From: Neelides folsomi
Lineage: Eukaryota; Arthropoda; Collembola; Neelipleona; Neelidae
Direction of reading: 5' to 3'
Length of the DNA: 64,000 nt
NCBI GenBank assembly: GCA_034687125.1
Contig: JAQGBZ010000267.1
Coordinates: 23,536 to 87,535, forward strand
The notes under the pieces were generated by a model. The model saw only the letters and a list, made by a program, of their open reading frames with translations, did not search any database and was not told where the DNA came from. The stretch's first letter is position 1, and every line of letters starts with the position of its first letter. Shown here one piece after another: positions 28,799-54,800 of this stretch. The position numbers and the translations under genes were made by a program.

Positions 28799-29420
28799 AA
28801 CGAGACAGCGGTGAAAGAAAAACCATTATCGATCAATCAAGGGAAAGAAACAGAAGATTTTGAAAAGGTTTTTTAAATACTGATAAATGTAAGAAGCAAG
28901 GAGCTCATTCACTCTTCAATTAATTACTTAACACAGAAAAGAAGAAAAGCAAGTAGGCGAAAGACTCTAGCTGAAAATTTCTCATTAATCAAAGAGGAGG
29001 AAATCAGTGAGGATATGGAAGAGTCTGTAAATATCCCGAGGTTGCCTTGATCTTCCTCTCACCATTCTTTGTCTTTTCGAGGGCCGGTTCTCAAGATTCG
29101 AGAACCCCGAGAAAGTAATGCAATAAGATGAGGAGAATGTGAGAATAAGAGACAAGAGGAGTTGGGTATGTAAGTTAGAGAATCGCTCCCTGTTATTTTT
29201 AGAGCCTTCATCCCTCCCTTTATTGGCAATTACATAATCGTTATACATATTGTTACATACACAGAGTTGCATGTATTGAGTATGGCAGAGTCTTAATCTA
29301 CATATTGAAGGACGTAGTCAAATGGTAAGGTCTGATTAGGAAGAGATGTTCAAAGGGAACATATGAGGAAGATTTCGATATAGGATTAGTATGGTGTTAA
29401 GGTCGGTTTTTTTATTAGTA

Positions 29421-29810
29421 TTAATATACGCCGGTGATTTTTCTCGCGTAAGTCTTCGCGTGGGCGATGTAATGAGAAGATGAGGATCGAATTGACTGGA
29501 GGAGTTCCGCATCTCGACTAACTCTCATCGACTGAGTCCGTCGGCTTCGATCCATGTAAGACCGAAGTGCCCGTTCTTCCCAAAGGAGCGGCTTTGGAGC
29601 CTCCGGCCTCTGCCCTGTCGCCCGTTTGTCAAGGTAATCAATCATTGGTCGGTAGTAGTTGGCTCCGTACTCAAAGTTATACTCGTAAAGGACAGATTTC
29701 GGACGAGCCCAGTGGACGAAAATGGTGGGCTTTTTCTTGGGGGCTTCTCCGGCAAAAGACCCTCCCGTGGCTTCTCCAACCTCCATTGAACTCAACTCGC
29801 CTTCTCCCAT
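29421..29810 (-). CDS. fln: Flightin (thick-filament protein, WYR domain)
   Basis: A single coding exon of 129 codons. Residues about 28-90 match the flightin core: VHWARPKSVLYEYNFEYG, NYYRPMIDYLDKRATGQ, then a WEERALR segment; the C-terminus (LLQSIRSSSSHYIAHAKTYA) also fits. In insects flightin binds the myosin rod and sets thick-filament length and stiffness. The acidic N-terminal region is shorter than in Drosophila (182 aa in all, as I recall). The start is the ATG at 29810, 9 bases into an exon that follows a TCATTCCAG acceptor. An upstream exon ending at 30450 (ACAG|GTGAGA) has no in-frame ATG and so should be leader. AATAAA follows the stop at once (29411-29416 on +). A paralogue lies 6.8 kb upstream in the same orientation. 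Confidence 0.9.
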   Translation of the reverse strand: MGEGELSSMEVGEATGGSFAGEAPKKKPTIFVHWARPKSVLYEYNFEYGANYYRPMIDYLDKRATGQRPEAPKPLLWEERALRSYMDRSRRTQSMRVSRDAELLQSIRSSSSHYIAHAKTYARKITGVY

Positions 29811-30449
29811 GTCTTCGGACCTGGAATGATTTTATACTTTTATCCACATGTTTCCCATTTACCATCGTCGACGTGTGGTTGATGGGAGTGGTGAAATGGT
29901 TTTGGGAGGAACAGACGGCAATTTCGGATATCATCTCCCGGAATAACCCACAGAGTCCAAATTGCACCAATATACATCTCAAGTTACTAATTATATGCTT
30001 TAAAGTGCGAACGATAAAGCGAAACTCAAGTTGGAGTCTTTTCGTGTTCAAGGGGATGATTAATGCAATTAGGTAAATACTCTCAAGTTAAGGATTCTCT
30101 TTCGAATGAATAATGATCAAATAGAAGGTCGGAGTCTTTCTGATATGAAAGGTGGCCAATTAGTGAGAAAGGAGATTAAAAGAGCAGAGGAATTACTACT
30201 TTTCCGCGCTTGTGGTGGTTCAAATGATAAAAAAAGCTTATATTTCCAAACACAAAAAGATGAAGTGGGGAATTTCTGAAATAACTACAATCCAAATTGT
30301 TCAAATATCTCTAAGTAGTTGTCAAAAGAAATGAAATTTTAAGGCGCTTTCTTTCCAATTGTTCCTAATTCCCTTTTCAATTTTCCTCCTTCGAAGAGTT
30401 TATTGAATTTGGAAATGAAAGATCGGAGCAGTTGTTGGTTGTGTCTCAC

Positions 30450-30560
30450 CTGTCAGGTTTAAGTCCGTAAGGAGTTTGGGAAGTGGCGGAGAGGGCTGAA
30501 CGGCAAAGTAGCTACTCGAGCGTGTGTGATCTCTGACTCCCGAAGAAGTGTTATTCTTGG
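30450..30560 (-). promoter_or_regulatory. Probable 5' UTR exon of flightin and nearby promoter
   Basis: On the minus strand a good donor (CCTGACAG|GTGAGAC, exon edge 30450) pairs with the acceptor just before the flightin ATG. Reading back in the joined frame reaches a TAG without an ATG, so this exon is non-coding. Its 5' end is not defined by sequence; 30560 is only a nominal limit. The surrounding DNA (30450-31450) is less A+T-rich than its neighbours, as expected of a promoter. Confidence 0.45.
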
Positions 30561-31914
30561 GAGGTTGGCTCTCACTATGAGGCCGATCCGATTCCGAAAG
30601 TGAGCCAAGAGCTTTAAGCCGTCCCTTTAAGGTGGAAGTATTAATAGGGTCTTATTAGAAGCATTATACTAGGTTGAAATGCGGGAGCCGCCGCCCATTT
30701 CCTTCGCTAATTTAGACACCTCATTCTGGTCCTTGTGAGTCTGGGACAAAGTGCCAACTCCCGAGTGGCCATATTACAGCGTGATGGATGTGGGGACGGG
30801 GCAGCTCTTTGACATCCCTCAATCTCACCCTTGGCAAAAAAGAATCCGGTTAGGAAACCACCTAATTACTTCTCTTCCGCCATATTTCCTTCCTCCGCCT
30901 TCTCTAATTGAAATAGCATGGGAGGATCGTCATCTATCCTCTTCATAACAAGGGAACGTTCAAGGGATCATTTGGACCTTCCCGGGTCCCTTGGTAAATG
31001 AAGGGTGTAAGTCATTTATTACTCGCGGTTGATCCGGATGGATAGAGTTGTCTTAGTGGAGAAACTCAGAGATAACTCTCCGCGACTCTAGCCAAAAACA
31101 GATGAATTCAAATTTTGGGATCTTGGAGTGGGAACATAAGTGATGTCTCTGTCGCGCCCTGCTTAGCGGTTTACTTTTCTCCCACACATGCATACAGATG
31201 TTGGGAGGATGGAAGTGACTATAGCTAATAAATTTGAGTGAGATAGGTCCTCATGAGCGGGACGAGGAATCACAATTTACCCTTCTCTCCGTACATACAT
31301 TACCACTCCATGCTAATGGCGGAAGAGATAGAAAAGTCTCGGATTTGGAAACAAGCAGTTGTTTTTTAAGATGACTAATGGGCGGAATGGAGAGGAGTTC
31401 GGGTGGAACTCTCTTCCTCCTCCACTGACCCATCTTTTAGCTTAGTTTTTGGCCAAGTTATGGAGGGAAGGACAAGGCAAGAGATCTATTACAGCTGCTA
31501 ACTCAAGGCTTCCGCCCCAACAACCTTTTTTCACATAAACGGTAGAGAAATGAGAATGGAGGCAATTTGAATATTTAATATGATTGAAAACAACATGGAG
31601 ATGTTTTTGGCAACCACTTTATATTACATTTGACAATCACATCAATGATCACATTTGTCTTTAACCAAATGTTAACCATTTGTGTATTTATTTGTGTAGG
31701 TATGTCAGTATAGATTTTAAATGGGTATCAGAATTATTCTTATGAACGTATGTTACTAAATATTCTCAATTTATTAATGAAGATCATACATGAGTCAGAG
31801 TCCTCAGAGTGCATGACTGTCTTGATTAATAATTGTGATTGATTCTGTAATGTTTATTAAATTTATTAATATTATTTATTTATTTATATTATTTATTGGA
31901 TTTTTGCTATTTGG

Positions 31915-32030
31915 ATAATATGCAGTCTTGAACTTCGGTGACTGAGGAGAAACCATCCTGTGCTGGCCTATTGTCGGCCTAGATGAAGGTCAGCAACTGC
32001 CTCATTCTTAATAAAGCAAAGATAAAGATA
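31915..32030 (+). mobile_element. Probable 3' tail of a LINE retrotransposon
   Basis: A block of more balanced base composition ends in TAATAAAGCAAAGATAAAGATA. Ending in an A-rich tail with short GATAAA repeats after a polyadenylation-like signal is typical of 5'-truncated Jockey/I/CR1-type LINE copies. No reverse transcriptase frame is visible. Boundaries are approximate. Confidence 0.4.
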
Positions 32031-33436
32031 TTCGAATCAAACAATTAAATTTTTGAAGATCTCGGGATTTTAACGTAGGTATTATCTGTATATGGTTTGG
32101 TTAATATTTATTTCAATATTGTATCAACAAATCAACACTAACTACAACTTATTGTCAACTAAAAGTATTACCTTGATTTCGTCAGCTTAAATCTTGCCAT
32201 CAATTAAAGAAAGTTTAATTTTACAAATAAAGAAACGGTCTGTAAATATCGTACATACTTTATAAATGAATAATGCATTATAATGTTTTATTAAATAGAT
32301 AACTATTCTGATATTAATGTAGTAGTGGATTATTTCTTTTATTGGTCTCTCTGAATTATGAAATCATAATGCGTGCTATAAGTTGTTATTCTTGCTAATG
32401 ACATGAAAGATGGTCAGATACCTCTACATTATTTATTAGAACAATATTATTATAATAATAATATTACAAAAAGCGATACGGCTGTGTGATTCATTGAGAG
32501 GGATATGAGGTTGCAAGTATAGGTTTAAATTTTAACAACATCTATTGCTCTCTACTAAAATATTAGCCAAACTGATTAGAATTATTCGTCGTCGCTGTCG
32601 TTCGACTCCGAGTTGGCAAGAGGTCAAGTGGCTTATTCTGAAATGTTATATCACATGTAAAAGTAATCATCTTATTTTTTATTTGGCAGCGAAATGGGAA
32701 ATGTATACTTCTGGTTGTGGTGTCTTTTATTTAAACGTATAATCACAAAGATGAATAATACTTTTATGAAAATGAATAACTTGAAGAAAAGCTTAAGTTG
32801 CGATGATTTGATGAGTCTTGACAAAATTACTCATCATAAACGTATGCTTTCAAGTTTAAATTCTATATGCATAAATATTAAAAGTTTTCCTAAGTTTTAC
32901 ACAAAGATCGATATGTCATTAAAGATAATTACCTATACATAACAATGTTATAATATATGATACGATAAAATTAAATTGGTAAAATATGTACTGATTTGAA
33001 AATATGTATTTATATACGGTTTTCAAGGATCTTACACTCGTATAGGTAATATTGTTAATAATAAAAAATATAGAATAATACATGTACTTATTAAATATTA
33101 GTATAAGCATAGTCAATTTTCTCTTAAATTGGCAGAACCATAATTCGATTTTCACATTTAAATTAGAACTGTCTTAACAAGGAGACTCGATAGCTCAATT
33201 TTCTCATTCAAGGTTATATCATCAACTACATAAAGTACCCGAGAGGAGTTGTTACCATTTAAATTTAAATCGGCTTAAAATATTTATCGATAAAAGTTTT
33301 ATCATTAAACAAGTGCAGAAGACACATATTCCATATTATGTCTTATTGTGTTTATGGAAATGCAAAAAAATGCAAAAATTTATTTAATTCAATTTCTATA
33401 ACTTGAAGCAATTATCTAACTAAAGTATGATACAAA

Positions 33437-34045
33437 TCAAAAGTAGTTTCCATTGTTTTCAAAACATTTTCTCCACTGAGATTCCAATCTATTAATTCCT
33501 TCCTGCCAGCATTGTGGTATGCGACTTACACAGTGAGAGATCCTAACCAGTTGTTTACTGCAGTTTTTAAATCGTTTACCTCTCAAGAATCTTTTCATGT
33601 GAGAAAATAAGTGACAGTAAGATGGAGAAATATCTGGAGAATAAGGCGAGTGTGGAAGACTTTCAATTCCCAATCTGTCCAATGTGTCTTTAACAATTTG
33701 ACATTTATGAGGACGAGCATTGTCGTGGAGCAAGCTGATGGCGAAGCTGGTGGCGAAGAATGTGATTGTAGAGTTCTCCAGTAATTGTTTGATTGCGTGG
33801 TAAAAAGTGCACAACAATCGGACCTCTCCAGTTCCAGAAAATGCACATCATGACCTTTCTCTCGAATCTGTCCTTCTTAACAATTTCTGGAGCCTTTTCC
33901 CCTTTCCATTTCCACTCTTGAGATTACTCCCAATATTTAGGCTCGAAGTAAAAAATCCAAGTCTTATCACATGTGATTATACTTCTTAAAAAGTCTTCAC
34001 CTAATTGTCGACCTTTGTTCTTCTAAAGAGTAAACGATTTCTTGG
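33437..34045 (-). pseudogene. Dead mariner transposase (C-terminal two thirds)
   Basis: Mariner-family blocks occur in order on the minus strand: GEDFLRSIITCDKTWIFYF with the first catalytic Asp (about 33960-34020), KVMMCIFWNWRGPIVVHFLP, then LLHDNARPH with the second Asp, PYSPDISPSYCHLF, and FENNGNYF before the stop at 33437. The frame is broken by stops and by shifts (the middle and C-terminal parts lie in different frames around 33750-33800). The third catalytic Asp, normally in PSDYHLF, is replaced (PSYCHLF), so the copy is inactive. N-terminal DNA-binding part and terminal repeats were not found. Confidence 0.85.
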
Positions 34046-35548
34046 AACTTCCATTTTCTTTAGATTTTGCGTGAATTTTAAGATACTCAAGTAGTTTAAA
34101 AAATTAATTGATTATTTTCATTATGTTGACAATGTAACTTCGAATTTTGCATAAGACCAATAAGACACATAATTTGGTATGATCTGATAAGTAATTATCT
34201 CTTCTTTTTAGTTTGCCTTTGTTCTCATCTAAACGAGCTTTTATTTGGAATAAAATTAAATAATGAGCTTGTTTATTGTGGCACAAAGTTCTAATGGTAA
34301 ATGAGGATTTGATAATTATAAGTCGGCCAATGTAAGACGTATTACGTTCGTGATCTTAAGTACTTAGGTAATATTATACTAACTTACATAGTATATTTAT
34401 GTACTACTCTATAATCGAAATAGCCTTTTAATAGGCACCAGGAATTACAGACTTGTTGGCCAAAATTCTTTTCCCTTCTTCATCAAGTTAGAGACTGAGC
34501 TTTCTTTGAAACTAGTGGAGATGTCCATTTAAATGCATTGAGAGTTAAGACATGGCCTGGTTTTTATTCTTAATGTTAGTTGAGAAAGATATCGAATATT
34601 TTCTTTATCCCCCGTGGCCTTGATGGAAAGTCATTGGAATTTTAATTAAGACCCTTTCATTCTGCATTGCATTTCTTGAGTTCTATTTCTCCATTATTTG
34701 TCTGCTCCGAGTATCCTGTTAAGAGAACAATGCAATACGTTAATCCCTACATCCAATCATGTAAAGTGTGTTTTTGACTTTTTTGTGCTCATTCTTATGA
34801 AATGCCCTAACACAATATACTATAACATAAAATAAGATGCATTATAAATTATAATGTGTATTACAATAATACTGTATATCTGTACGTATTTATGTTGTAA
34901 GACCTAAACCGAATTCAATTGGATATAATGTATTTTAGTAGTAAAAAGCACCAAATTTGTTAGGGTTTAATTGTTAAAAATGCAGTCTACAAGGAACGAG
35001 AAACAAAACAAGACATTTTGCATAATATTCGTATATCATCGCATCGATGCGAATTGTTTTACTTTCTCCACAGACCTCCTGAACGCCACCTTACACTTCG
35101 GAATGAAATGTATAGATAAAATTACATACAAACGCTTAACTTTAAAAGTAACGTTTATCATTTATCTCTCGAGCCTACTCATTGTACACATAAAATCATA
35201 AAGTTATAATCAAATGGGCATTGGAATTGGCTCTTTTATGTACTATGGTATACATATATAGTTTATTGTTTATAGAATATTTTACAAATTGTTAATGCAT
35301 GCCGGCATGCCTAATTAAATAATATTATTAAAATAAGTGTTAAAATAGATTTTATAACCCATATAAAGATATTACATAATTAATGATTTATTCGATAGAT
35401 TCAATGCATTTAAACTATTGTTATATGCTACAACCATTGTAAAAAGAAAAAAAACTGAAATAAGATATGAAATATAATATATTTTATATAAAAATATATA
35501 ATACCTGTATAATTTGGTATTTATTTATAATATGCATATTATATGGAT

Positions 35549-35697
35549 AACGCAATTAAAGTGGGACACAGATTTTTGTGGCACTGCACAAAAAACTTAT
35601 AAATAGTAGTTTGTTATAAAATTGTAATAAAATTAATAGTAGAGTGTTTTATGTGCAGTGTCATAAGCCGAAAGAACTTTGTCTCACTTTAATTACT
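35549..35697. mobile_element. Short MITE, about 150 bp
   Basis: Left TAATTAAAGTGGGACA-like and right TGTCTCACTTTAATTAC ends are imperfect inverted repeats of about 45 bases, also sharing CACTGCACA(T/A)AAAAC. No coding capacity. Size and ends suggest a Tc1/mariner-type MITE, for which a TA duplication would be expected; the flanks are too A+T-rich to settle it. Confidence 0.55.
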
Positions 35698-36593
35698 TTA
35701 TATGTTTGCAGAGTATTTGATTGTAAAATATCATGTTACATAAAATAGTACATATTATGAAAGTGATCTAATAATTGAATTTTATTTATATTTATTCAAT
35801 GATTCTCCAGATTTGAACATATGCATGTTTAAATAGAAGTCATGATTTTTAACTTCACTATTTAATATTATACAGATATGTTGACACGAGACATGAACTA
35901 TACGCATACGCACTATACATTTGAGACATCGACACTGTACAGAAAAGGGTAAAAATTATTGAATCACAAAATATTTCCTAAATATTTAATATATCTATGA
36001 ACGTAACATATTTCTTTAAATATTCAATAACCACTATAATACGATACATTAAATTATGATGCTACATATTTGCAAATTGATTCGAATGTGAAGAAGAGAA
36101 ATGTAGGATTTAATTATTAGTTGATAATTTATCAATCTTAATGTAACAATCGTGTAACAATTAAATAATGTATTTTAAATGTTTAGCGAAATAGAAATAA
36201 ATTTTAAAGTAATAAATGGTTAAACAAAGAATTGGCCAAAAAATCAAACATAAATACATAAATAATTTTTTCACTGTACATTGTAATAATGGCCTTCGGG
36301 ATAAACAAAGAGTTCAAAGAAGTCGAAGAATTTATAAACAGAAAAAAAGAAGATATTACGTTAACGTCAAATGCTTCACCACCACCATCAATTTTTAAAG
36401 AATTTGAAATTGATATCTTGAAATATACATTTCAAATGGCAAGATGTAAATATATAATTACATTGTATGTTGTACATGCGGATCCTTCTTATTTCGTTGT
36501 TCTCTTGAGAAATCTTCCTCATTCATATTTTTTTACATTTTGTTTTTACCAGAGAAGAAAAGAGTTATAAGAATTGACAGCATTTCCTTTAAT

Positions 36594-37415
36594 TTAAGAT
36601 TCAATCGTCGTCTTGATCGTTCTCTTCGTCACTCGAATCGTTCTTGAAGATTGCATGGCACTCGAGGCCGATGATTGCTGTGAGCTTTCCTGTCGACTTC
36701 TCAATGACGCGCTCGCCGAGCTCCCTCGGATTGCCAATGCTGAAACGTCATCATTGAGCTCAGCCAAACGGGCTCTTGCCCGTGAACGGATCTGATCCGC
36801 TCTTGATTCCGCAATCGCTGCATGGGCAGCATCACTTTCCTCAGCCTCAGCTCTTGCACGGAGTCTAGCACGGAATTTAGAGCTTGAGCTGTCGACTTCC
36901 TTCTTCATCTCATCCATGAGTTCCTCAGCAGCAGCCTTCTTTGTTCTTCCTCTCAACAGCGAGCTTTCAATCATCGACTCAGCTTCTTGGGATCTCTGAG
37001 CTGCCATTTTCCTCCTGGCCATAAAAGCCTCATCGAAACAATTATCAGAAGAAGCAAGAGCCGATGTTGATCCGCTTACTCCAGCAGACTCAAGGAGCCT
37101 ATCTCCAAAGATGAGCTTTCGTCGCTCATCAGCAGCCGCCATTGAGGATTCCTCATTCAGGGAAGATCTTCTCAAACAGGACTTCATGGACATTTCCGAA
37201 TTTCTGTAATTGAGAGCTTCCAAGTTTCCATACACAGGCTTTGCAGCGAATCTCTCTGCGAATGTTTTTGCTCCTGGTGGGGACGATGATCGTCCGCTTC
37301 TTTTAGTGTCAAGGTGAGTGAGAAGCGGTTGGTAGTAATGCTCCCCGAGGTTGTAGTTGTAGTCGTACATCCTCGTTGCCGGTTTCTTCCAATGCATTCC
37401 TGTGCGTCCAGACAT
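36594..37415 (-). CDS. Flightin-like WYR-domain protein with Ser/Arg/Ala-rich extension
   Basis: A single coding exon; 273 aa from the ATG at 37415 (MSGRTGMHWKKPATRMYDYN). Residues about 7-52 align with flightin's WYR core: HW.KP....YDYNYNLGEHYYQPLLTHLD, then a G-rich turn and TFAERFAAK. The rest differs: a long hydrophilic region rich in R, S, A and E with probable helix (MARRKMAAQRSQEAESMIE; FRARLRARAEAEESDAAHA) and a basic tail (TIRVTKRTIKTTIE). It is probably a sarcomere protein binding the myosin rod, perhaps myofilin-like, but I cannot name it. An acceptor lies 24 bases before the ATG (exon edge 37438) and a leader exon ends at 37589 (AAG|GTAATT). ATTAAA follows the stop. Confidence 0.75.
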   Translation of the reverse strand: MSGRTGMHWKKPATRMYDYNYNLGEHYYQPLLTHLDTKRSGRSSSPPGAKTFAERFAAKPVYGNLEALNYRNSEMSMKSCLRRSSLNEESSMAAADERRKLIFGDRLLESAGVSGSTSALASSDNCFDEAFMARRKMAAQRSQEAESMIESSLLRGRTKKAAAEELMDEMKKEVDSSSSKFRARLRARAEAEESDAAHAAIAESRADQIRSRARARLAELNDDVSALAIRGSSASASLRSRQESSQQSSASSAMQSSRTIRVTKRTIKTTIES

Positions 37416-37588
37416 CTTCACGTTCGTAGGGAGGCTCGCTGTAAGAAAGGAAGTTAATTTATTGGATCGGTAAAGTAACTGATTTTAATTGATTACAAAG
37501 TTTTGTACTTCAGTAGCTCTGGAACGAATGGGAAATAATTGAATAAGAAAATGTTTATTCGATTGATCGGGAGAGTTAAATGAATTAC

Positions 37589-37650
37589 CTTATAAATGTA
37601 ACGGCCCAAGAGGATGGTGAAGAGAGCTCCGGTTGCTCAATCGGTGAGGT
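37589..37650 (-). promoter_or_regulatory. Probable 5' UTR exon of the WYR-domain gene
   Basis: On the minus strand, TTACATTTATAAG|GTAATT is a good donor facing the acceptor CTTTCTTACAG at 37439. This repeats the flightin layout: non-coding leader exon, intron, single coding exon. The 5' limit is arbitrary. Confidence 0.45.
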
Positions 37651-38818: not shown

Positions 38819-40635
38819 ATGATGGAATTTAACAAAATTTTGCAAACGTCCCCACGATGGAGGTTTTCATTCTCAAAAGGATTCTTCATCTTGGCTTATT
38901 TGGTACTTTTTCTATATCAATATGCCATTTGTTCCGCATAAAAATTATGCCTCAAGAGTTCACACCTTGTGAAAATATTTATTAATTTTGATCAATATGA
39001 TACAATAACCCAATTATGAATATTTTGATTTTCAGTCCTTGATCTCATTTTACAACCCCACGGATAGTGGAGCAGTCGAATTCACCGATTCTAATTTTGA
39101 TTCTCTTTTAGGTAAGGAAATATTTAATGGGTCAGCTATTTTTAATTTTTAAATTTTTTTTCAGCCTCCACAGAATTAGTTTTCATTAATTTTTATGCGG
39201 ACTGGTGCCGATTTAGTAATATGCTTGCTCCAATCTTTGATGAAGCAGCCGTGAAGATTAGGAGCGAATTTCCTAACGAAAATCAAGTTATTTTAGGACG
39301 AGTAGATTGCGATAAACATAGTAAGTACTCAAAAATTCTCATTTGTTTATTGTCATTAAAGGACTCATTAAATAATTTTATTGACAATTCCTAGAAAAGA
39401 TTTCTTCTTATTCGATTCATATTTATTTATTATATTCAAAACAATTATATAAAAATATGTTTTTAGGCAGTATTTCTTCACGATATAAGATTTCCAAATA
39501 CCCGACTTTAAAGCTCATTAGAAATGGTGTTCCAGTCAAGAAGGAATACAGAGGTCAACGGTCACCGGAAGCATTCTTTGAATACATTAAGAAACAATTA
39601 GAAAATCCTATCACCGAATTCAAGAACCTTCAAGAACTTATGAAAATTGATGTATGAAATCAACTCCTATATCAAATATGTCGTTTCAATATTTAAGAAA
39701 TATTATTTTTAACTTTTTTTTATTCTCAAGGACAAGAAAAGGATATTCATTGGCTACATGACAAACAATGAAAGTAAAACTTATAATGTTTTCAGACGAG
39801 TTGCAATGAACTTGAAAGACGAATGCTCATTCTACATTGGATTTGGGTAACTAAAAATTTAATGAAATTAACTCTCCTTTTTGTAATCAGATTTCTATTC
39901 ATCAAAACTAAAATTGTTAAATTAAAATTGTAGGGACGCATCGCGACAAATGCATCCACCGGATCATGACATTATCGCTTTCCGTCCTGACAAGTCAAGA
40001 TCTGTCGAAGCTGACGAGACTTTTAAAGGAAATGGGGAAAGTTTTGATGAAGTGCTCGCTTGGGTCTCAGCTCTTTGTGTTCCTCTCGTCAGGGAAATTA
40101 CTTTTGAGAATGCGGAGGAATTGACTGAAGAAGGACTCCCATTCCTCATTTTGTTCCACAATCCTAATGATGACGAGTCAGTCAAGAAATTCAATTCCCT
40201 TGTTCAATATCATCTTCAAGACGAACGACGTAAGGAATTTTAATACCACCATTAAAAAGAATTTTAAAGAAAATATGCTTACAAGTATTAAATAAATCTT
40301 TTGTCACAGAGAACGTTAATTTCCTGACTGCTGACGGAGTCAAATTTGCTCATCCGCTCCACCACCTTGGAAAGAGTTCGAGTGATCTTCCGCTCATTGC
40401 GATTGACAGTTTCCGACATATGTACCTCTACAAGGATGCAAAGGACATGGAACAACCAGCGAAGATCAAAGCCTTTATTCAAGATCTTCATTCAGGAAAA
40501 CTTCATAGGGAATTCCATTACGGCCCCGATCCTTCGTCCCCAGATGAGAACCCAACGAATCCTCCGGAATCGACATTCAAAAAACTCCTTCCTTCAAAGG
40601 ATCGTTATACTCTTCTTGATCACGATGAACTCTAA
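38819..40635 (+). CDS. ERP44: ERP44, ER thioredoxin-like retention protein
   Basis: Seven exons: 38819-38902, 39036-39111, 39165-39320, 39467-39651, 39731-39846, 39934-40229, 40310-40635, for 412 aa (human 406). A hydrophobic leader precedes the thioredoxin domain, which has the ERP44-type active site CRFS (Cys68) in NFYADWCRFSNMLAPIFDEA. Close matches to ERP44 run throughout: FPNENQVILGRVDCDKH, RYKISKYPTLKLIRNG, CVPLVREITFENAEELTEEG, IAIDSFRHMY and DLHSGKLHREFHYGPDP. The C-terminus is HDEL, an ER-retrieval signal. ERP44 holds unassembled clients and Ero1 in the early secretory pathway through mixed disulfides. All intron phases agree; exon 4 ends in GTATGA, a slightly unusual donor. The first exon (two tandem ATGs, 38819 and 38822) is the least certain part. 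Confidence 0.94.
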
Positions 40636-43355
40636 TTCGACTTAATTTCCTATTTTGTCCTATAAATTGATTTTATCCTTCGTCACTCTTTACCATTCAA
40701 ATATTATTTTCTCTTTTGGTCCCTCTATCTTTTCAAATATTTATTTTTAAATGCATGTTCATTGATTTAATAGAATAACGCTAAATTTAATTTCATTAAA
40801 AATCGGAACACAATCGGAATAATGATAATTATAGAGTGCGAGTAATAATTATGATTTAAATTGAATTAAAAGTATACCTTTACAATATAAATAACATGTT
40901 ATAAAATTGTGGAGAATACCTAAAATATATTACGCATTTGAGCATTTGAGCATTTGAAATTATCTTTCACTAGTATTCGTCATTGGACAAACTTTTTTTT
41001 TACAAAATACCATAAAACAACTTCAATGCGATTATTTCTTTTTTATTCGTGTTTTTAGAATATTCAATACAAAAGGGGTATCAAATGGGGTTTAGAGATT
41101 GTGGTTAAGCAAGTCACACATTTTAAAATTATTTGGCTTGCTTCAACACATTGAGTCACGACATTCAGAATTAACATTCTTTACTTATGGTTCTTTTTTG
41201 TGGGAAGGTCCTTAATTTACTTTCGTATTTATATGTTAATATGAATTAATATCTAATGTAGATACATAAATAAATACATGTAGATATAATAGTCTGAATA
41301 TAAATAAATGTTTAAATTATACAATACATATTTTAAATGCTTTACGATAACAATTAATCTTATCTATAACATTAAATACTTAAACCACTAAACTCACACA
41401 TACCATGAACATTAATTTATTTATTGCAGTATCTTAAAACCCATACTGCCATTACTATCAATGAATAATGTAATGAATTAATCATATTTAAAATTTAAAT
41501 ACTTTGTCAAAATCGAGTGTAAATTAATGATTACAACTGTAATCAACATTACAACTGTAGATTGAGATTGAAGGTATTGAAGCTTATGAAAAGAATGAAT
41601 AGTGTTCCAACTCTGATATAGTAAATTGTAATTTAGATAAAGATTGACAAAAATGTTAGCCAACATTGTAAAAATAAATTTATCACATTTTAAATTGGAA
41701 TAAATTGTATACTATATGAATAAAAATAGCATGGTACATTAGTTTATAAACGTTCATGTCCAGTCAATTAGAATTATGTATTTTATTGTGAAAAATGTTA
41801 CAAACACAAGGTGTTAATCAAGCAGTAAATGAATACATTAAGAATAATCATAAAATAGGCATTAAACGTTCAAGATTTCTTTGTAAACATCCTAATTCAT
41901 CCTTAAAAGTTAATAAATAACTGTAAGCAAAATAATTTTACCTTAAGACGACAGTTTAACTTTAGTTTTTCTTTTAGACATACTACATATTTAAATCAAT
42001 TAAAAGTAGGTATATCCTACCCTAACATAATTTGTATGGTATATAAGTTATTGCAAACTGGTTGTACTAAAACTTGAATTATAACTATTTATGGTTTGAA
42101 TGCCAAATCTCTGTACCTTTTCATTTGCGAATATTTGAATTAATTTTCATTGAAAAATTAACGTGGATGCAACATTAACTTTAAACAATTTATTTGGTTG
42201 TGTGATTAAAAATATTTTTAGGCATTCGGATTATTAATTATACTCTACACGTTTAATTAATTAATATGAAGTATACACGGTATAGTAGAGTGGTTGAAGT
42301 TGAATCTAACAATTGTAGCCTTACCTAATTAGAGCATGTGTACAAACGTATTTATGTCAATTTATGTTATTGGGCACATAAGCATTTATAATCAAAAAGG
42401 TAAAATGAAGAGCAAAAAATTGAATAAAGTTAATGACTAATTATTATCAGCCCAATTTATTAGCATATAAATTCATTATAATTCTATTTGAGAATTTTTA
42501 TATATTTTTATAATCCGATTAATATTAATTACTTTATTCATGGTATTAAGTTTTACTAAAAGTAAATATGTAGGTACTATATATTACATAAATACATTTA
42601 TAGGTCCTTACGATATAAAAGTTTATCATAAATTAAAAGGGTAAAATATTATAAAGTCTTAGATTGAATACTATTTACATTGACAATATTTTAAACAGCA
42701 AGACGATAGATCGATTAGAAAGTTATTTACATGTTGCAAATAAGTTATATACGCATAGTTGTACGACAATAATAAAATACTCTAACATTAAGATTTATAC
42801 TGATATTTTCTGATAGTAAAACAAATTGAAATTATCCTTATTATATTTAACACAAATGCAAGTCATTTACATTTTCATTATTTGAATTGAAATCTATCGT
42901 TATTTAAATCGAAGTTATAAATATTTAATACTTACATACATATACAGTAATAGTAAAGTTATTATAGAAGTATTATTGACTAATGAGACTAATGACAATA
43001 TAATATAACGATGTTAATACCTAATAACACATAAATGAAATTCTACCAATATATTTATAATGACATATATAATACTATTTAACATACTGTTTGAACAATA
43101 AAAATTAAAACTATGTAAAAGAAACCTAATCCAATTTTTTATTTAACATTGCAGTTATTAATAGTCTTAACTCTTAATACTATAAAATCTTTTATTTTAT
43201 TTGCTACAATTATTATAAAATTAAAGTTATCATTAATTTAATTTTGTACAATAGCTTTTGATCAAGAAAAGGACCGAAACCCAAAGTTATATATTATATA
43301 ATGTTGACCTTAGAAATTAAACTAATACAGACTTATAGACTAATTGAGAAAATGG
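40636..43355. other. A+T-rich gene-free interval
   Basis: This 2.7 kb lies between the 3' ends of ERP44 (+) and the BTB-zinc finger gene (-). Very A+T-rich, with no recognisable gene, element or tandem repeat. Confidence 0.5.
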
Positions 43356-44979
43356 TTAATCTGGATTTTCATATAGAACTCCTTTGCAAGTCCGTTGATG
43401 CACATTGGCTTGGAATCGATACTTAAACCTGATATTACAAGTAGCACATTGGAACATCGGGGCTTTGTTGCACTCGTATTTCTTGTGTCGGATTAATGAC
43501 CCGCGAGTTTGATAAGCATGGCCACAAACGTCACAGCTATATTTCAGTTCTCCTTGAGCTCTTCTTGGTTTCAACGCTGAAATCATTTTAAGACTTTAGG
43601 ATCATATTCAGACTTTTTGAGCAGAAAAAGACATAAATAGTTAGTTATAGTAAATGGCAATATTGAATAAACGGATCTAATACCTGTAAATGCTTCGTTT
43701 CCAGTTAATTGTTCAATATAGTTTTCTTCAATGAACATCTCATTTTCTTCTGAATCTTCACCCTGCATCGATTCCCACCGCTCTAATATATTTATTAAAA
43801 AATTAATATTTCGAAGTAAACATTATTTATTTTAAAATTTAATGTCTTCATTTTATTATATAGACCTTCAACAGCTCCACTCCCTTCATTATTTTCAAGA
43901 TATTGCTGCTCTTGTATAGGACTTTTACTTTCTTCTTCATCAGCAATGTCAACATAAACAGGATCGCGCTTCAAAATAGACTCGGGAGAAGTGTAGAGTT
44001 CATTTTTTGATGACTTGCTCGTTTCGCCTTCATCATTGTATGATTCCTCGTATTCATTGAGGAGAATTGACATATTTGGTTGAACAGTAATGTTAACGGG
44101 TTTGTTGTTGGGTGTTGAGGAAGTTGTGAGCCCAATTTTAGGATGCTGAGATTTCTGGTGTAGCACCACTTGGGAATTCTTTCCGCTTTTCCCTACACTA
44201 CTCCTATGCACGATTTTCGGTTCTGTATGAACTGTTTGAATCCGAGAAGTTGAAGGGTTTGAAGAATGGGTTATTGAAACAGATGGGATAATGGCCGGAG
44301 ATTTTGCCCCGCTTGATGCGGATGTTTTTCTTTGGCTTCTGCTCCCAACAACTCCAGAAGGTCGAGTTGGAGAACGATCATTTCTTTGCTTGGTTGTTGG
44401 AAAAATTATTGTTTCAGATCTATGAGAAATTAATTCAGACTCTTTTCCTGAACTTCTTGAAACATTTGGAGAATTTATTGAAAGTCCTCGAATCTCCAGT
44501 GACTTAGCAAGGCTGATGAATCCTTCAACTTCACTTTGACGAAGACTGATTTCGCCTCTGTACATGTAGTCAATGAGAAGTTTGAGATCTTCGCACTTGA
44601 CGTCTTTTAGGAATATGACAGATTCTTTCTTGACATCAGAAAACAAAGGATTGGTGAAGAGTTTCTAAAAGAGATATCACGAATCTTTAGTTAAATCATT
44701 TAAGCATGCTTTGATTATCTTTAACCACGCCCAAGAATAGTTTTACAAATATATAAAAATCATGAGAGCCTTTAAGATTACCTGAAAATAAGGGCTGCAA
44801 GCTGACAAAATAAGTTTGTGAGCATGAAGCAAATTCCCATCGGAGGTCATAAAGGCGACGTCAGTTAAGCTCTCCGTTGACAGAAGTGCTTCGAATATTG
44901 AAAGTATTGTCCCTTGATGACTCGTCCACCTCAAACGAACGTGATTTTGACCTGTCATTGTGGCTGAACTATTATTCAT
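43356..44979 (-). CDS. BTB-zinc finger transcription factor (Lola/Broad type)
   Basis: Four exons, 44979-44782, 44664-43866, 43782-43684 and 43576-43356, give 438 aa. The BTB domain spans about residues 12-125 and is of the arthropod TTK type: VRLRWTSHQGTILSIFEALL, DGNLLHAHKLILSACSPYFQ, then LKDVKCEDLKLLIDYMYRGE. A long Ser/Pro/Thr-rich linker with acidic patches follows. Near the C-terminus are two fingers, C380DVC with H and C ligands (SLIRHKKYEC) and CATC...VHQRTC; both have the C2HC spacing seen in Lola-family finger pairs. It should be a sequence-specific nuclear regulator with BTB dimerisation. The exon 2 donor (G|GTCTAT) is weak, but frame and content agree on both sides. Which member of the family it is cannot be told. 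Confidence 0.85.
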
Positions 44980-45518
44980 TTTGTTAAGTCTATTAAATAT
45001 TGTTTTGGAGTCACAACCAGTCAGTACTTAGAACTCTTTTTAGGATCATACGCACACTACGTATTACTTCGATTTGACATAATCCTAAAGTCAATTAATA
45101 AACACGAATTATGAGGAACCTTGAAAAGTGTTAAAATTTTGGTAAACATTTATTTATAACTTATAGCTTGTCCCATTGTTCAAATCAAAGGTGCAGAATG
45201 TAGAAATCCATCTCACAAGGGAAGAGTGAGAATTCCATTTTACTTTCATTTCCTATTGTTATGTTCATGTGTATAGATTTGGATTATCTATCAAAACTGC
45301 TTCGATTGACAGGTGGATGATCAAAATATGATAGAGTCAAAAATTGTCATTGTTTATTGAGAATTTATAAATCTTGTAAATGGTGTAATTATTTAGTTTT
45401 TATTATAAAACTTTATTATAGAGAAGGTTTTGACATTTCGAGTGCCAGTGTGCAACGTGCAAGTTCAAATGTGTTATCGGCGCCTCGTTTAATTTTCACA
45501 TGAAACTGAAATGGAAAA
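44980..45518. promoter_or_regulatory. Head-to-head promoter interval, BTB-ZF (-) and NHE8 (+)
   Basis: The start codons are only 539 bases apart and diverge, so both promoters must be in or near this interval. I see no clear TATA box for either. Close to the NHE8 start there are two short upstream ORFs, at 45500-45574 and 45511-45522. Confidence 0.5.
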
Positions 45519-45574
45519 ATGAATCTGCTCAAGAATATTTTTATTTTATTTTTATTCTCATTACTCTTCTGTAA
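45500..45574 (+). promoter_or_regulatory. Upstream ORFs overlapping the NHE8 start
   Basis: An ATG at 45500 opens a 24-codon frame that runs past the NHE8 ATG (45519) in another frame. A second ATG at 45511 makes a three-codon frame whose TGA (45520-45522) overlaps the NHE8 ATG in an ATGA arrangement. If the transcript begins upstream of 45500, both could lower or gate translation of the exchanger. Confidence 0.4.
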
Positions 45575-48569
45575 TTACTCATTTGGAGATAATATTCAAA
45601 AGTCGACAGTGACAAATGAGCATATCAAAAATGGGTGAGTCATTTTAATTTATCTTATAATTTTAATACAAAAGTAATCATGTGAGACGAATGTAAATAC
45701 ACATATCCACTAAAATGAAGTAGACTGAAGAAAACATAATTTTATTTATTGTAGTTCAACTTCGACGAGTGAAGTTGGGAAGAATACTTTATCGACTTCG
45801 GTAGCGTCTAGTCCGAATAACAAGACATTCTTGTCGTCAACCCCGTCAACTACAACTGGGAAGGACATTAACCATCATGCAGGAAAGGATACAGCCCAAG
45901 AAGAGCATGACAGTTCTATGGCCATTTTCTTCGTACTTTGTGTTATTGGTACATTCGCCATACAGATCATATTTATAAAATACATTAACACAGTTGATTA
46001 TGATACAATTTTAACTATACAATATAAAAAATAACTCATTTTTTCATTTGGTATTAAATGAGCTAACAACAATTTTCATTTTTAGCTCTTTGCATTATGT
46101 GCATTCATTTTTTAATCCAGACTGACCTTCAATATCTACCCGAGTCAATCATTGTGATTTTCATTGGTACTTTTTTTTATCATTATCCAAATACATTATA
46201 TATTTCATAATCAAATTACGTCTTTTATTAAAAATTTATAATAATTTTTAGGAGCTCTAATTGGTCTTGTATTGAAATTAATGTCAAATAATGCTTATTT
46301 CGGAAATTGGCAGGTAATGTTTTTTCAACTTATGTAATATAAAAAACCAAGTTTAACATTATTTAATTATATGAACATTGTTAAGAAATCTTGTCTCTTG
46401 ATTTTTCAGAAAGAAGAAGCTTTATCGCCAACTGCATTTTTTCTAGTCTTATTACCGCCAATCATATTCGAGTCAGGATACAATTTGCACAAAGGAAACT
46501 TTTTCCAAAATATTGGGTCCATTTGTGTCTTTGCCATTATTGGAACTTTAATCAATGCATTTGTGATAGGAGGAGGAGTTTACCTTCTTGGCCTTGTAAG
46601 ATTAAAAAATATTTTCAAATTAATATGATATTTAATTTAATTCCTCAATCTCTATTATTTATGTCTTGCACGTTTTATAGGCTGATCTAGTCTATAAGCT
46701 CAACTTTGTTCAAAGTTTTGCATTTGGTTCTTTGATCTCTGCTGTTGATCCGGTGGCAACTCTGGCTATTTTTAATGCTTTGGATGTCGATCCAGTTCTT
46801 AACATGTTGGTATTCGGAGAGAGCATCCTCAACGATGCTGTTTCAATTGTCTTGACCTCGTAAGCATTACATTTTACACAAGTTGAAATATTCAATATAA
46901 ATAAATTAACATGGATTCTTTACAGAACTATTTTGCAACTCGACGATGCAACGGAGAAGAATGCTGTAATGGAAGGAATAAACAATTTCTCCATTACTTT
47001 CGTTGCTTCAGCTGGGATTGGAGTTTTATTTGCACTTACTTCTGCCCTTCTTCTCAAACATGTGGATTTGAGGAAAAATCCGAGTCTCGAGTTTGGCATG
47101 ATGCTTATTTTTACATACGGTCCTTATACTCTTGCTGAAGGAATACATCTTTCGGGTAAAAAATACCTTTTTTGTATTTAGATTTAACTCTATTTTGTTT
47201 ATTCACTTTAAAGATATGAAAACATTTGGCCAATGTCGTTATATAATTATAAAATTTTAAATCTAGGTATAATGGCAATCTTGTTTTGTGGAATCGTCAT
47301 GTCACATTACACTCATTTCAATCTCTCACCTGTAACGCAAATTACAATGCAACAAACAATGAGAACTCTCGCTCTTATATCAGGTATACTAGTTTTTGTA
47401 TGAATTCAATCTATAAATTTTCTTTTCATAAATTGAATTAATAGAAACTGACATCAATTAATATTATTTACCTTTTCTAATTTCAGAAATCTGCGTTTTC
47501 GCTTATTTGGGACTGGCTATTTTCAGTTTCCATCATCGAATTGAAATTGCCCTTGTTATTTGGAGTTTGTGTCTCTGTCTTGGAGGAAGAGCTCTCAACA
47601 TTTTTCCACTTTCAATTGTAGTTAATAAATTCCGAAGTCATCGAATCACCAACAAAATGCAATTTGTCATGTGGTTCAGCGGACTTCGTGGAGCTATTGC
47701 CTATGCCTTGTCTCTTCACATGGAGTTTGAAAAAGAAACTCGACAAGTTCTCATTACGACTACGCTCATCATTATTCTCTTTACCACATTGGTTTTTGGT
47801 GGTTTTACAATGCCCATTGTGAAGGTTATTGATCATTCAATTAAATATTTTTAATGTAATTTTCAGTACTTTATTTAATTTACAGTATTTAATTTAATTT
47901 CTTAATATGTACTTATTGTTAGTATGTACAAGGAACTTCAAGAAGGTCATCTAGTAATGCCAGATTGCTGAGAAGAAGGAAAAGTAAAGAAATATCTTTG
48001 AGTAAAACTAAAGAAATGGTAACTTTTATTCTTGTTTCGACATTAACCATTTTTAAACCAATTATTATACATTGTTGCAATTCACAATTAATGTAAATTC
48101 ATTTTAGGGCCAAACTATTGATTCTGAGCATTTATCTGAGCTTACAGAGGAAGAATATGACACCAATTTGAAACAGAATGCATTTGTGAGACTAGATATG
48201 AGATATTTAAGACCATTCTTCACAAGAAGATTTACACAACAGGTAAATGACTATAGTACTTTGTTTACACAACTGTGTGCCTGAAATTCAATGTACAAAT
48301 ATTTCTCACCTAATTAATCGAAGTTTGAATGTCATTATGGACTGTAATATGATATTGGGCTAGTGGAATGTTTAAAAAAATAGACTCATTTCTGTGCTTT
48401 GTAATTTATTATATACTTAAAATTCATTACATATTTTGATCCATTACAGGAACTACGAGATTGCCAAACTCAAATGACAGATTTGACGAATAGATGGTAT
48501 CAGAATGTTCGTGTTTCTCCAATTAATAGTGACGATGAAGATGAGATTGTTGAATTAGATTTGACCTAA
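45519..48569 (+). CDS. SLC9A8: NHE8-type sodium/hydrogen exchanger
   Basis: Twelve exons: 45519-45634, 45755-45948, 46086-46166, 46252-46313, 46410-46595, 46681-46859, 46926-47155, 47267-47383, 47487-47824, 47923-48018, 48108-48242, 48450-48569; 617 aa. A signal sequence and Ser/Thr-rich lumenal segment precede the exchanger core. NHE8 hallmarks: FFLVLLPPIIFESGYNLHKG, SLISAVDPVATLAIFNAL, FGESILNDAVSIVLT (the conserved ND pair), LKHVDLRKNPSLEFGMM, MSHYTHFNLSPVTQ and MWFSGLRGAIAYALSLH. The C-terminal SEHLSELTEEEY and RPFFTRRFTQQ, with an acidic end, are specific to NHE8 among exchangers. It should exchange Na+ or K+ for H+ in Golgi/endosomal or apical membranes. Exon 9 uses a weak donor (AAG|GTTATT), but phase fits. 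Confidence 0.95.
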
Positions 48570-48963
48570 CTATCCATCCAATATTGACCAAAGTTGAAAA
48601 GTTATATATGTTTGCTGTTGTTGTTATAAAATAAGGTTAATTGTTTAGTAAACATTGTTTTCTGAGTTCATTCAAGTCAATACCTATTTATTATATTAGT
48701 TACCTATAAATAAGAGTCAGTATTTATTAAAAACACGATATATTTATTTACTTATTTAAAATACCAATATCATTATAATGTAAATATAAATAATATCTTA
48801 TTAAATACCTAATTTTGTTATATTCTATAATGTTACCTTTTCTGGAATATTCTTCAATAAATGTTCTGAAGCTTTTCAATGTAAAATTATTCTATTTTGA
48901 CTACGTATTAGGTAGATGATACTTTTGCACCCAATTCCGAAAATGATTTGCTCATCAATGTCA

Positions 48964-50141
48964 TCAATCAAATATCCAAGGCTCTCTTCCTTCCGCAACT
49001 CTTCGTCGAATGACTTGTCTCATTTTGATCATCTCTTGTTCCAACTTATGTATAGCGACCGTCAACAACTGAATCGGGGCTTTAAAATAAATCTCTTCTA
49101 AACGTAGTCGAAGTCCAATACCTGTAGAGCTCGCAATATCAAGTGGATTTTTCCAAAGCCAATTCTTCTTTAAAAAGGAATTGGAAGTGTAAAGCCATTT
49201 GTGGAGTTGCTGATCTTTATAAAGAGATTCCAAAATCTCTTTCTTTTTCTTTTCAATCTCTTCTTGTTTCTTTTTTTCTTCAATCAGACGACATTTTTCA
49301 ATCTTTTTAGAAACTGCCAATTGTCTTCTTTTGGCTTCATATCTATTTTCAACGAATTTATTATGAATTATTATATTTACTAAATATTACATGCTAATCC
49401 AATATTACATATTTAAACTTTTAGGTAATATAACTACTATGATCTTTATGATTATACGAAAAACCTTTTCCTTGCTTCTCTATTCGATTTCTCCAAATCT
49501 TCTAATTTCTTAGTCATGTCAATTTGTGTTTTCCTCGCCTCTTCCCTTTTTCGTGTTTCTCCTACAAGCCGAATCTCTTCGAGACGCTTTGCAATTGCTA
49601 ATTGGTTTTCTCTTGCTTCATCTTCCTGTTAGTTTGGTATAGTCGACCATTATAAAAATATTTCATATTGGTTAAAGTTCTAATGATAAATATTACCATT
49701 TGTTTTCTTTTTTCAATCTGCTCTAAATACTCTTGTTTGAGCTTTTCACGCTCAGATTCAATTTTCAAAAGTTCTTTTTCATGTTTCAAAACTTGCTTTT
49801 CGTGCTTAACCAGATCTTTTGAAATCTCGATATCATCTTCCCCAATTTCAGGATCAGAATCTGATTTTGATGACGAATCTTCAATTGCTTGAACTTGATT
49901 ACAGGCAGATTTCAATGCTTGAATTTTAACCTGGTTTGGTTCTTCTCGGTCTTCATCTATGATAATTTTTCAGTTTATTTTTATGCGTGTATTATAGCAA
50001 AGCAACTTTTGACGCACCCTGTACATATATTTATTTACCTAATATAATTAGATTGGAATGATAAAAGAATTTCTCACCTAGCGTTTCTTCTAGGACTTTC
50101 TCCATAACCATTTCAACTACGTCGTCCGCGGCGAGATCCAT
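48964..50141 (-). CDS. Charged coiled-coil protein, unknown function
   Basis: Four exons, 50141-50078, 49956-49697, 49625-49465 and 49342-48964, join with consistent phases to give 287 aa. The N-terminus is acidic (MDLAADDVVEMVMEKVLEET), followed by an Asp/Ser-rich patch, then a long Lys/Glu/Gln/Arg coiled coil of about 140 residues. The C-terminal about 80 residues are more structured in look (KWLYTSNSFLKKNWLW; ASSTGIGLRLRLEEIYFKAP), ending REPWIFD. No family is recognised; coiled-coil composition gives weak matches to many cytoskeletal proteins. It is tail-to-tail with NHE8 (stop codons about 395 bases apart) and divergent from APAF1. Confidence 0.75.
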
Positions 50142-51831: not shown

Positions 51832-54800
51832 ATGAGTGATCGGGCTCAATTTCAAATAAATGTGCTGAATAGCCATCGTGTTGCAATTATATCGGATTTA
51901 GATGTAAAACATATTAGATTAGAATTAATCTCTAAATTTGTTCTTGATCATGATGATATTCAAAGAATCGATTTTGAAGTAAGAAAACATTTTTAAACAA
52001 TATTCTTTGTAAATAAATCAACTGCAATTTAACTTTTAATCTAATATATATTTGTATTTGTGTATTTCTTTATAGAAGACAACCGGAGATCAGGCTAATT
52101 TATTGCTTGATTTAATGATTAAGAAGATCAGAGAAAACGAAGACTTTTCGTACTTCAATAAATTCGTAAATTCGTTGCAAGCAAAATACTCCTGGTTATA
52201 CGAACTCCTCGATCGAAGTGAAGATTCCTTGGATGCTCGACCAACATTAGAAGCAGAGGAGAGTTCGTATTATAGCAGCTCGAATAGCAACTCTCCTCCC
52301 GGTTTGATTATTGGACCTTCCAAAAGAGACAAGAGCAAAGAGATTCTTGTTTCTGGAGGAGTTCCGTGTTTTCCAACAACCAATGTCGAAAGAACATTCC
52401 TTGTAAGTTGTCTAATGTCAATTTACCTTCTTACAATTACATAGATACTACCTGTAGATGTATGGTATACCTGTATGATACAAGATGTATCAGTGTAGGT
52501 ATGATGATAAAAGGAATTATGTATTCATCGTTTGATCATTTTTAGATTGGGAAAATTGTTACTGGAATCCAAACTCTGGAGCAAGATGGGTATTTTGTAC
52601 TTCAAGGAATGACTGGTTGTGGAAAAACTGTTTGTGCAGCTCAAGCCGTAAACAAATACGTTGCCTCCAATTTGGGAGCTCAGAAAGATGGAATTTACTG
52701 GATTTCTGTTGGAAAAGATTGCGAGTCTAAAGATTTAACCCTTGGGAAGGTAATTAACAATTCAATTTTGTGATTTAACCGTTGAATGTTTAATTAATTA
52801 ATAATAGTTTATTTTGTGCAAAGTTAACCGTTTTCATGAAAATTTTAGATCAAAATTTTATGCGACAAATTGGGATTAACAAAAGTTCCAAGTTCGTTAG
52901 ATCACGGAGCAGATCTTTTAAGAAATGCATTTATCAACAGACCGAATGCTCTTTTGGTAAGTTTTAAGAATAAGATAAGAACAAGAATTATCTGATAATT
53001 TTGATTGCAATTCTTATTTTGTTAGATTTTGGACGATGTATGGCATCCAATCGTTATTCGAAGTTTTGATGTCGGTTGTAAAACGCTGGTCACAACAAGA
53101 GACATTTCCGTCATGGAGGTCGTGAATGGAAGAATGAAGAAAATTGACATTTTGAATGGATTCACAGAGGAAGAGTCGAAGGAGTTGTTTTCTCGAAACC
53201 TTGAAATGGACATTGAAGAATTACCGGAAGAAGCCTTAAAAATACATGTAGAATGCAAAGGAAATCCAATGGTTGTCTCCCTAATTTCCGCTTTAATCAA
53301 AGAGCACGATAACAAGGACGTTGAACGATGGGCCTTTTACTTTGATTTTCTCAACAAAAGAAAATACTCAGAATTGAAGAAAATTCGATATTATGGACAT
53401 GAATCTGTTATTGATGCCATTTCTCTCAGTATTGATAAACTTCCGGTTGCAGAAAAAGTATTGTTTGAAGATTTTGGAGTTTTTCAAGACGACGTTCGAA
53501 TTCCTTGCGAAGTAATGTATTATTATTTATTTTAATATAATGTTACACATGTGTTAATATTTTAATCAAATTTAATAAGCGTTTAAAGTGTTTAGTGTTC
53601 CTGCCTAATTCTTAAGTGATGTTTTTGAATTATGATCAGGTGCTGAGGATTTTATGGGATAAGAAAAACAAGTACGAAGTTGAGCACATAATGAAAACAT
53701 TTGTGAAAAAGAGTTTAGTGCAGGAGGAACACGATCCGATAAGGAAGTCGAGCGTTTATCTGGTTCATGATTTACATCTCGATTGTAAGATAAAAGAATT
53801 TACATTAATAATGTAGCAATAGCATAAGATTGTAGTTTATGCGATTTTATAAAACATCAATTATTTCAACCACCTGTAGTTAATTTAAGTTATCTTTTAA
53901 ATAGATTTGAAGTATCAATTCAAGAATGATCCGGATCATGATGTTGAGCAGGTGAATTTCTTGAATAAATCCTCATAGTTTACTACATAAAAAATACTGC
54001 TATCAAACAAATACCAGACAAACAAATCAGATGTAATATTAATTAGGTATGTACCGGGTGGCCGGTTAAGTAGGCTTTATTTTTAATCAACAATAATTTT
54101 TATGTTTATAAACGAATGTTCATCAAAATTATATGATATACTCTATATATAACTAGTTAAAGGTGGTTAGGTTAGGTGACCCATCTTCGTGCAACTTCGA
54201 GGGCGTTTTGTACTCGCGAGTATTCTTCAACAATGAAAACCTTTTCTTCTTTTAACAGACGACGGCGGTTTTTCATGTTAACGAAAAGTAAAAGTAATGA
54301 AATTGAAAGTTGGGCTTTCTCTGACTAAAGTGTTTCCCGTTTGCTTATGTTTTAAAATTTTCTGCTTATAGTCTGCTACAATTAACATTAACATATTTCC
54401 CATCGTCTAATTATTATTAAAGTTTATAATATTTACGAGCCTTAAAGTTATTGTTGATTAAAAATAACCGGCCACCCGGCATTTATGATCTATTTCACAG
54501 CGACTCCATGAAAAACTAGTAAACAAATATGCCGCAGCTTGCAATTATGAATTCTCAAAATTACCAAATGATGGTTACATTTATACATACATTGGAAGGC
54601 ATCTTTACAAATCCAAGAAAACGGACATCTTTCCAATTTTATTTACGGATCTGCTTTTTATTGGAGAAAAACTGAGAAATACTGGAGTTGAAGATCTCAT
54701 ATATGATATTCAAAATTACTACAAATACATCGTCGAAAATGTTTGTAACATTTGTTATACTAATATGCCTGTAACTACCATATTATAATGTATTAAGTAT

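Follow-up and report, generated by a model that had tools for sequence, protein, structure and literature searches.

The genome of the collembolan Neelides folsomi (Arthropoda; Collembola; Neelipleona; Neelidae; GenBank assembly GCA_034687125.1) carries two closely spaced genes for proteins with a WYR domain, the domain found in the muscle protein flightin. Both lie in a stretch of 64,000 nucleotides, hereafter the window, that corresponds to bases 23536-87535 of contig C267 (JAQGBZ010000267.1); the assembly, which was searched as a whole, comprises 75.1 Mb in 840 contigs, and positions below are those of the window unless a contig is named. Gene 1 occupies 29421-29810 and gene 2 occupies 36594-37415, both on the minus strand and with the stop codon included, and they encode proteins of 129 and 273 amino acids, respectively. 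Gene 1 was delineated as an open frame with phmmer matches to flightins and gene 2 as an open frame that matches a WYR profile. The initial annotation had placed two WYR genes on the minus strand of 29421-37640 and had ascribed to both the motif HW.(K/R)P...Y(E/D)YN...YY.P...LD; the frames are intact, and the motif is present in each. The coding sequences (CDS) are 6.8 kb apart, with a G+C content of 52% in gene 1 and 50% in gene 2; that of the window is 32%. No Pfam family matches either protein at E-values up to 1.

Judged by its sequence, gene 1 is a flightin. In a phmmer search of the sequences of solved structures, its residues 25-123 align with residues 76-175 of Drosophila flightin (8u8h; E 1.1e-17) and its residues 22-121 align with Bombus flightin (8ew5; E 1.2e-12); the only other matches are two unrelated proteins (E 0.16 and 0.25). 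The similarity to flightins reaches residue 123 of the 129, beyond the end of the WYR domain at residue 80. The domain itself, delimited by these alignments (residues 33-80; 29571-29714, minus strand), has 24 of 48 aligned residues identical to those of Drosophila and 22 identical to those of Bombus, compared with 30 between the two insects, and it retains the bounding W34 and R80 and includes six tyrosines.

Gene 2 contains a second WYR domain (residues 8-55; 37251-37394, minus strand, from alignments to gene 1 and flightins), which lies at the very N-terminus of the protein. The phmmer matches are to Drosophila flightin 8u8h (residues 7-57, E 1.6e-4) and Bombus flightin 8ew5 (residues 7-59, E 0.053), and BLASTP aligns genes 1 and 2 with 16 of 49 residues identical (E 7e-12, as a single comparison) and detects nothing in common outside the WYR domain. 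Gene 2 scores 38.4 bits when the profile combines the WYR domains of all three flightins (gene 1, Drosophila and Bombus) and 24.8 bits when gene 1 is left out and the profile is built from the two insects, whereas shuffles of its N-terminal 80 residues score at most 9.3 and 8.0 bits, respectively (5000 shuffles, of which hmmsearch reported 4821 with the three-domain profile and 4764 with the two-insect one). Among the 609 frames of at least 40 amino acids in the window, gene 1 scores 111.7 bits and gene 2 scores 38.2 bits on the WYR profile, and the next best frame scores 6.0. Because the profile scores are far above those of the shuffles, the domain of gene 2 is homologous to WYR; it keeps the bounding W9 and R55 and has five tyrosines among its 48 residues. 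One could still ask whether an aromatic-rich N-terminus has come to look WYR-like by chance or convergence, given that only 16-17 of 48 residues are identical in any comparison and that aromatic-rich composition inflates scores; the shuffles preserve that composition, however, and the sole other match in 75 Mb sits 6.8 kb from flightin, so that this explanation can practically be set aside.

Outside the domain, gene 2 does not have the three-part layout of flightin: the domain starts at residue 8, and the alignments to flightins stop near residues 57-59 of 273. It is followed by about 200 mostly helix-predicted residues, with a tail rich in Ala, Ser, Arg and Glu. In the single-sequence AlphaFold2 model, residues 120-272 (36600-37058, minus strand) are predicted to form a long helical tail, with the predicted local distance difference test score (pLDDT), averaged over 10 residues, at 53-95 from residue 121 on and at 76-95 over residues 131-240. 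A coiled-coil tail was considered and rejected, as neither heptad nor helical periodicity between 3.5 and 3.67 is significant in this part of the protein. For the WYR part, the single-sequence model places helices at residues 23-37 and 52-57, with low confidence, and a second model, which covers residues 1-130 and takes gene 1 as its second row, places them at 15-39 and 52-58, likewise with low confidence (mean pLDDT 56.1). Helix, loop and helix come in the order that PMC10573858 describes for the WYR domain, at a confidence too low for proof.

The initial annotation had also attributed one gene structure to both genes, and the sequence model bears this out: each has a leader exon, an intron directly upstream of the start codon and a single coding exon, with no intron in the CDS. 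The inferred 5' untranslated region (UTR) intron of gene 1 spans 629 bases (29821-30449, minus strand; GT-AG, donor CAG/GTGAGA and acceptor ATTCCAG/, the slash marking the splice), with the upstream exon ending at 30450, the downstream exon starting at 29820 and the ATG at 29810. That of gene 2 spans 150 bases (37439-37588, minus strand; GT-AG, donor AAG/GTAATT and acceptor TTTCTTACAG, ending in TTACAG/), with the corresponding positions at 37589, 37438 and 37415. The distance from acceptor to ATG is thus 10 bases in gene 1 and 23 bases in gene 2. On a crude consensus score of our own, 5 and 17 of the window's 2934 GT sites on the minus strand score as high as the donors of genes 1 and 2, respectively; the acceptor of gene 2 scores 13 and that of gene 1 a weak 8, its pyrimidine tract being poor. 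The inferred leader exons cover 30450-30540 in gene 1 (minus strand; the 5' end at about 30540 is a guess) and 37589-37640 in gene 2 (minus strand; the 5' end is taken from the initial annotation). Neither gene has an ATG within the 201 bases that end at its donor, and in both the frame of the start codon, followed upstream across the splice, runs into a stop, which in gene 2 is a TAA that adjoins the donor. Without an upstream ATG and with the spliced frame closed, the leaders would be non-coding, provided that the introns are real.

Genes 1 and 2 share a common ancestor and are linked. They are homologous, adjacent (in a survey of open reading frames and Pfam matches), on the same strand and of the same inferred structure, and the initial annotation was right that one is a flightin and the other a second, linked WYR gene. 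Three queries against the assembly, namely gene 1, gene 2 and a stretch of Drosophila flightin, gave two matches each, always the loci of genes 1 and 2 (E 4.0e-17 and 5.6e-5 for the Drosophila query, at a limit of 10); such a search scores the best candidates and reads exons singly, so that a strongly diverged copy may escape it, and the assembly is perhaps incomplete. Pattern scans of viral contigs (9 matches) and genome contigs (21 matches) yielded no confirmed relative. As the genome searches returned no further WYR locus, tandem duplication is the simplest origin, and the pair probably goes back to a single ancestral WYR gene that was duplicated in tandem and gave rise to a flightin gene and a diverged paralogue of it.

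The age of this duplication is harder to gauge. In its WYR domain, gene 2 differs from gene 1, Drosophila and Bombus to a similar extent (16, 17 and 16 of 48 residues identical, respectively), as a paralogue would if it had arisen before this animal and the insects diverged. The alternative is a lineage-specific duplication, in which gene 2 would be a recent, fast-evolving copy of flightin that has lost the flanking parts. The near-equal distances argue against this, as do a gene 2 branch of about 1.0 and the lack of detectable similarity outside the WYR domain. Some residues are common to genes 1 and 2 but differ in both insects (N45/N20, G49/G24 and the P after YY.), which fits a recent copy, although these residues may be ancestral and lost in insects; and the two genes are still close neighbours. 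In unconstrained trees under all three models, the insects group together and are parted from genes 1 and 2 by an internal branch of 0.48-0.67, with branches of 0.31-0.41 for gene 1 and 1.0-1.3 for gene 2. The gene 1 branch may even be near zero, as it ranges from 0.008 to 0.84 over 200 bootstrap samples (LG, fixed topology). The tree is unrooted and includes four sequences (genes 1 and 2, Drosophila and Bombus) with about 50 columns, which is too little to place the root. On balance, a lineage-specific origin seems unlikely, without being negligible. Of the ‘old tandem duplication' that had been proposed, the common ancestry and the linkage therefore stand, whereas ‘old' is not settled by either the distances or the four-sequence tree. 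The initial annotation had taken a grouping of the second protein away from all flightins as evidence against its proposal, and this has come about by half: the gene 2 protein falls outside the flightins, which fits an old paralogue and, alone, does not refute duplication.

A more specific and decidedly more tentative version of the paralogue reading, to which we give less than even credence, is that two WYR genes formed a cluster in early Pancrustacea, with flightin either originating there or joining it soon afterwards; this animal would have kept the cluster, with the partner building a second thick-filament core, and insects would later have lost or scattered the partner.

The residues that anchor the WYR domain can be followed into both proteins. 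Drosophila H84, W85 and R131 are kept in gene 1 (H33, W34 and R80) and in gene 2 (H8, W9 and R55), and of the seven tyrosines in the Drosophila domain, gene 1 keeps six and gene 2 keeps five. In Drosophila, R87 of flightin is paired with E1554 of myosin, whose substitution by lysine (E1554K) blocks the incorporation of flightin (PMC10573858, PMC9820631); the position of R87 is occupied by R36 in gene 1 and by K11 in gene 2. On the myosin side, Myosin_tail matches form 27 stretches on eight contigs, all of them other than the contig of gene 2, and a glutamate is found at the E1554 position in five of the six loci examined; the sixth, the non-muscle-like C129, which is nearest to non-muscle myosin, gave no match. 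Over a block of 100 residues, four loci (C24, C52, C69 and C81) show 72-93% identity to Drosophila muscle myosin. Crustaceans are described as commonly having several genes for muscle myosin (PMC3912159). A diverged myosin rod was also observed at C328:34500-38500, with 46% identity to Drosophila muscle myosin over 100 residues.

We infer for the pair a tandem origin, a location in the thick filament and a division of labour. In gene 1, the WYR domain is most likely located on the inner side of the annulus that the myosin rods form in the thick filament, where it would tie neighbouring rod layers together, and by analogy with Drosophila and Bombus, the acidic N-terminal part would exit the backbone and the C-terminal part would run inside it. 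From its sequence, the N-terminal WYR domain of gene 2 most likely docks on the same stretch of the myosin rod as flightin does. Lacking an exiting N-terminal arm and equipped with a helical tail, gene 2 would be a second protein of the filament core, and the fibres or the myosin isoforms that it serves may differ from those of flightin. The tail, of about 150-200 residues, could lie along or within the backbone and could add length or stiffness there, or else mark another fibre type; both suggestions are guesses.

Several observations weigh against this explanation of the pair. Four Drosophila residues are changed in gene 2 (R124 to G48, W128 to F52, Y99 to L23 and Y110 to H34), and given these losses, the contact with myosin may differ. 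Human MYH7 has the equivalent of E1554 as well (E1555; PMC10573858), so that its presence in the myosins of this animal says little about flightin. Both models of gene 2 are poor in the WYR part, with pLDDT below 50 over residues 7-50 in the single-sequence model, and a fold search with that model found no match at E below 0.001, the two that it gave (E 4.8 and 8.9) being meaningless. Finally, the upstream regions of genes 1 and 2 show no shared promoter sequence (similarity score 22, compared with a shuffle mean of 21.5), which can be read in either of two ways: the copies may not be very recent, or non-coding DNA may simply decay fast.

No further sarcomere gene was recognised among the window frames scanned. 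Between the two genes, and part of neither, lies a broken transposase remnant (33437-33980, minus strand, in several frames, recognised by eye) that we take to be mariner-like; a Pfam search with its longest frame found no family at E 0.01. Candidate polyadenylation signals of gene 1 (AATAAA, pattern match only) are found at 29219-29224 and 29411-29416 on the minus strand. About 1.2 kb upstream of gene 1 (30401-31600) have a G+C content of 42-49% amid AT-rich intergenic DNA, with no long coding frame seen, and this stretch could be regulatory. The window contains 50 MEF2-like sites, eight of them between 28 and 40 kb, a count that lacks a control and hence is not used as evidence. Further along, the 40237-49386 region includes Thioredoxin_6 (40.2 kb, plus strand), BTB (44 kb, minus strand) and sodium/hydrogen exchanger (47.5 kb, plus strand) frames; an Apaf-1-like gene, with an NB-ARC frame followed by WD40 repeats, occupies 53029-56362 on the plus strand; and p450 (60 kb) and PRMT_C (62 kb) frames lie in 60121-62466 on the minus strand.

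Elsewhere in the assembly, contig C742 (15,157 bases) is a mitochondrial genome, with an apparently unrearranged pancrustacean gene order: I-Q-M-nad2-W-C-Y-cox1-L2-cox2-K-D-atp6-cox3-G-nad3-A-R-N-S1-E-F-nad5-H-nad4-nad4L-T-P-nad6-cob-S2-nad1-L1-(ribosomal RNA region)-V. The order was compiled from the protein genes other than atp8 and from the transfer RNA (tRNA) genes identified by ARAGORN, which listed 22, one of them spurious, and tRNA-Asn in a permissive run only. With tRNA-Leu(UAA) lying between cox1 and cox2, the contig has the arrangement of Pancrustacea and not that of a chelicerate, and its seemingly unrearranged order speaks against a typical copepod; for the animal studied here, this holds provided that C742 is part of its genome.

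Flightin is known for its part in insect flight muscle, and a linked WYR sister offers a handle on the origin of the family and on the role of the WYR domain outside flight. It raises the question whether WYR is a general clamp on the myosin rod that carries different arms and tails, it makes the origin of the flightin family by tandem duplication testable, and it provides a gene pair to be sought in crustacean genomes and muscle proteomes. The flightin domain reportedly dates back roughly to the origin of Pancrustacea (PMC8301185), and a flightin of crustaceans as such is already known, Pancrustacea being named in PMC8301185 and PMC8301149. What is new here is the linkage of flightin to gene 2 and the layout of gene 2, with an N-terminal WYR domain and a predicted helical tail; a tandem flightin pair was not found in titles or abstracts of the open-licence literature.

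Among the known thick-filament proteins, myofilin was the first idea for gene 2, as the core of insect thick filaments contains it as a second non-myosin protein in addition to flightin (PMC9820631, PMC10573858). Myofilin is defined by an N-terminal LKG domain, in which LKG is absolutely conserved in 51 sequences, and the account in PMC9820631 describes no WYR domain in it; gene 2 has a WYR domain, its translation lacks the LKG tripeptide, and myofilin was rejected by this description. The other candidate of this kind, the N-terminal part of miniparamyosin, fares no better: the Myosin_tail loci lie on other contigs, the frame of gene 2 ends in its own stop, and the WYR searches of this genome returned just two loci, although the sequence of neither candidate was compared directly. 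That gene 2 is either of these proteins is very improbable.

A further candidate is ‘paraflightin', a protein of malacostracan crustaceans. In J Mol Evol, Soto-Adames et al. reportedly described it from decapods as a putative paralogue of flightin that has a WYR motif, and proposed that it is older than amphipods, isopods and decapods; they also reported a third, unclear motif in chelicerates. By that account it is a second WYR protein beside flightin, as gene 2 is in the collembolan, and it may share the layout of gene 2; we know of no report of its linkage to flightin. That gene 2 is paraflightin in another lineage, adjoining flightin, is compatible with the tandem-duplication reading preferred here, would make gene 2 a protein of a known kind and is nearly, if not quite, an even proposition.

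Compared with flightin itself, gene 1 has the same arrangement, with a central WYR domain, an acidic N-terminal part and a conserved C-terminal part, and a length of a similar order (129 amino acids versus 182 in Drosophila and 152 in Bombus); its N-terminal part is shorter, with 32 residues before H33 versus 83 in Drosophila. Gene 2 resembles flightin in the WYR domain only and differs from it in having neither the N-terminal arm nor the flightin C-terminus, and in carrying a long predicted helical tail.

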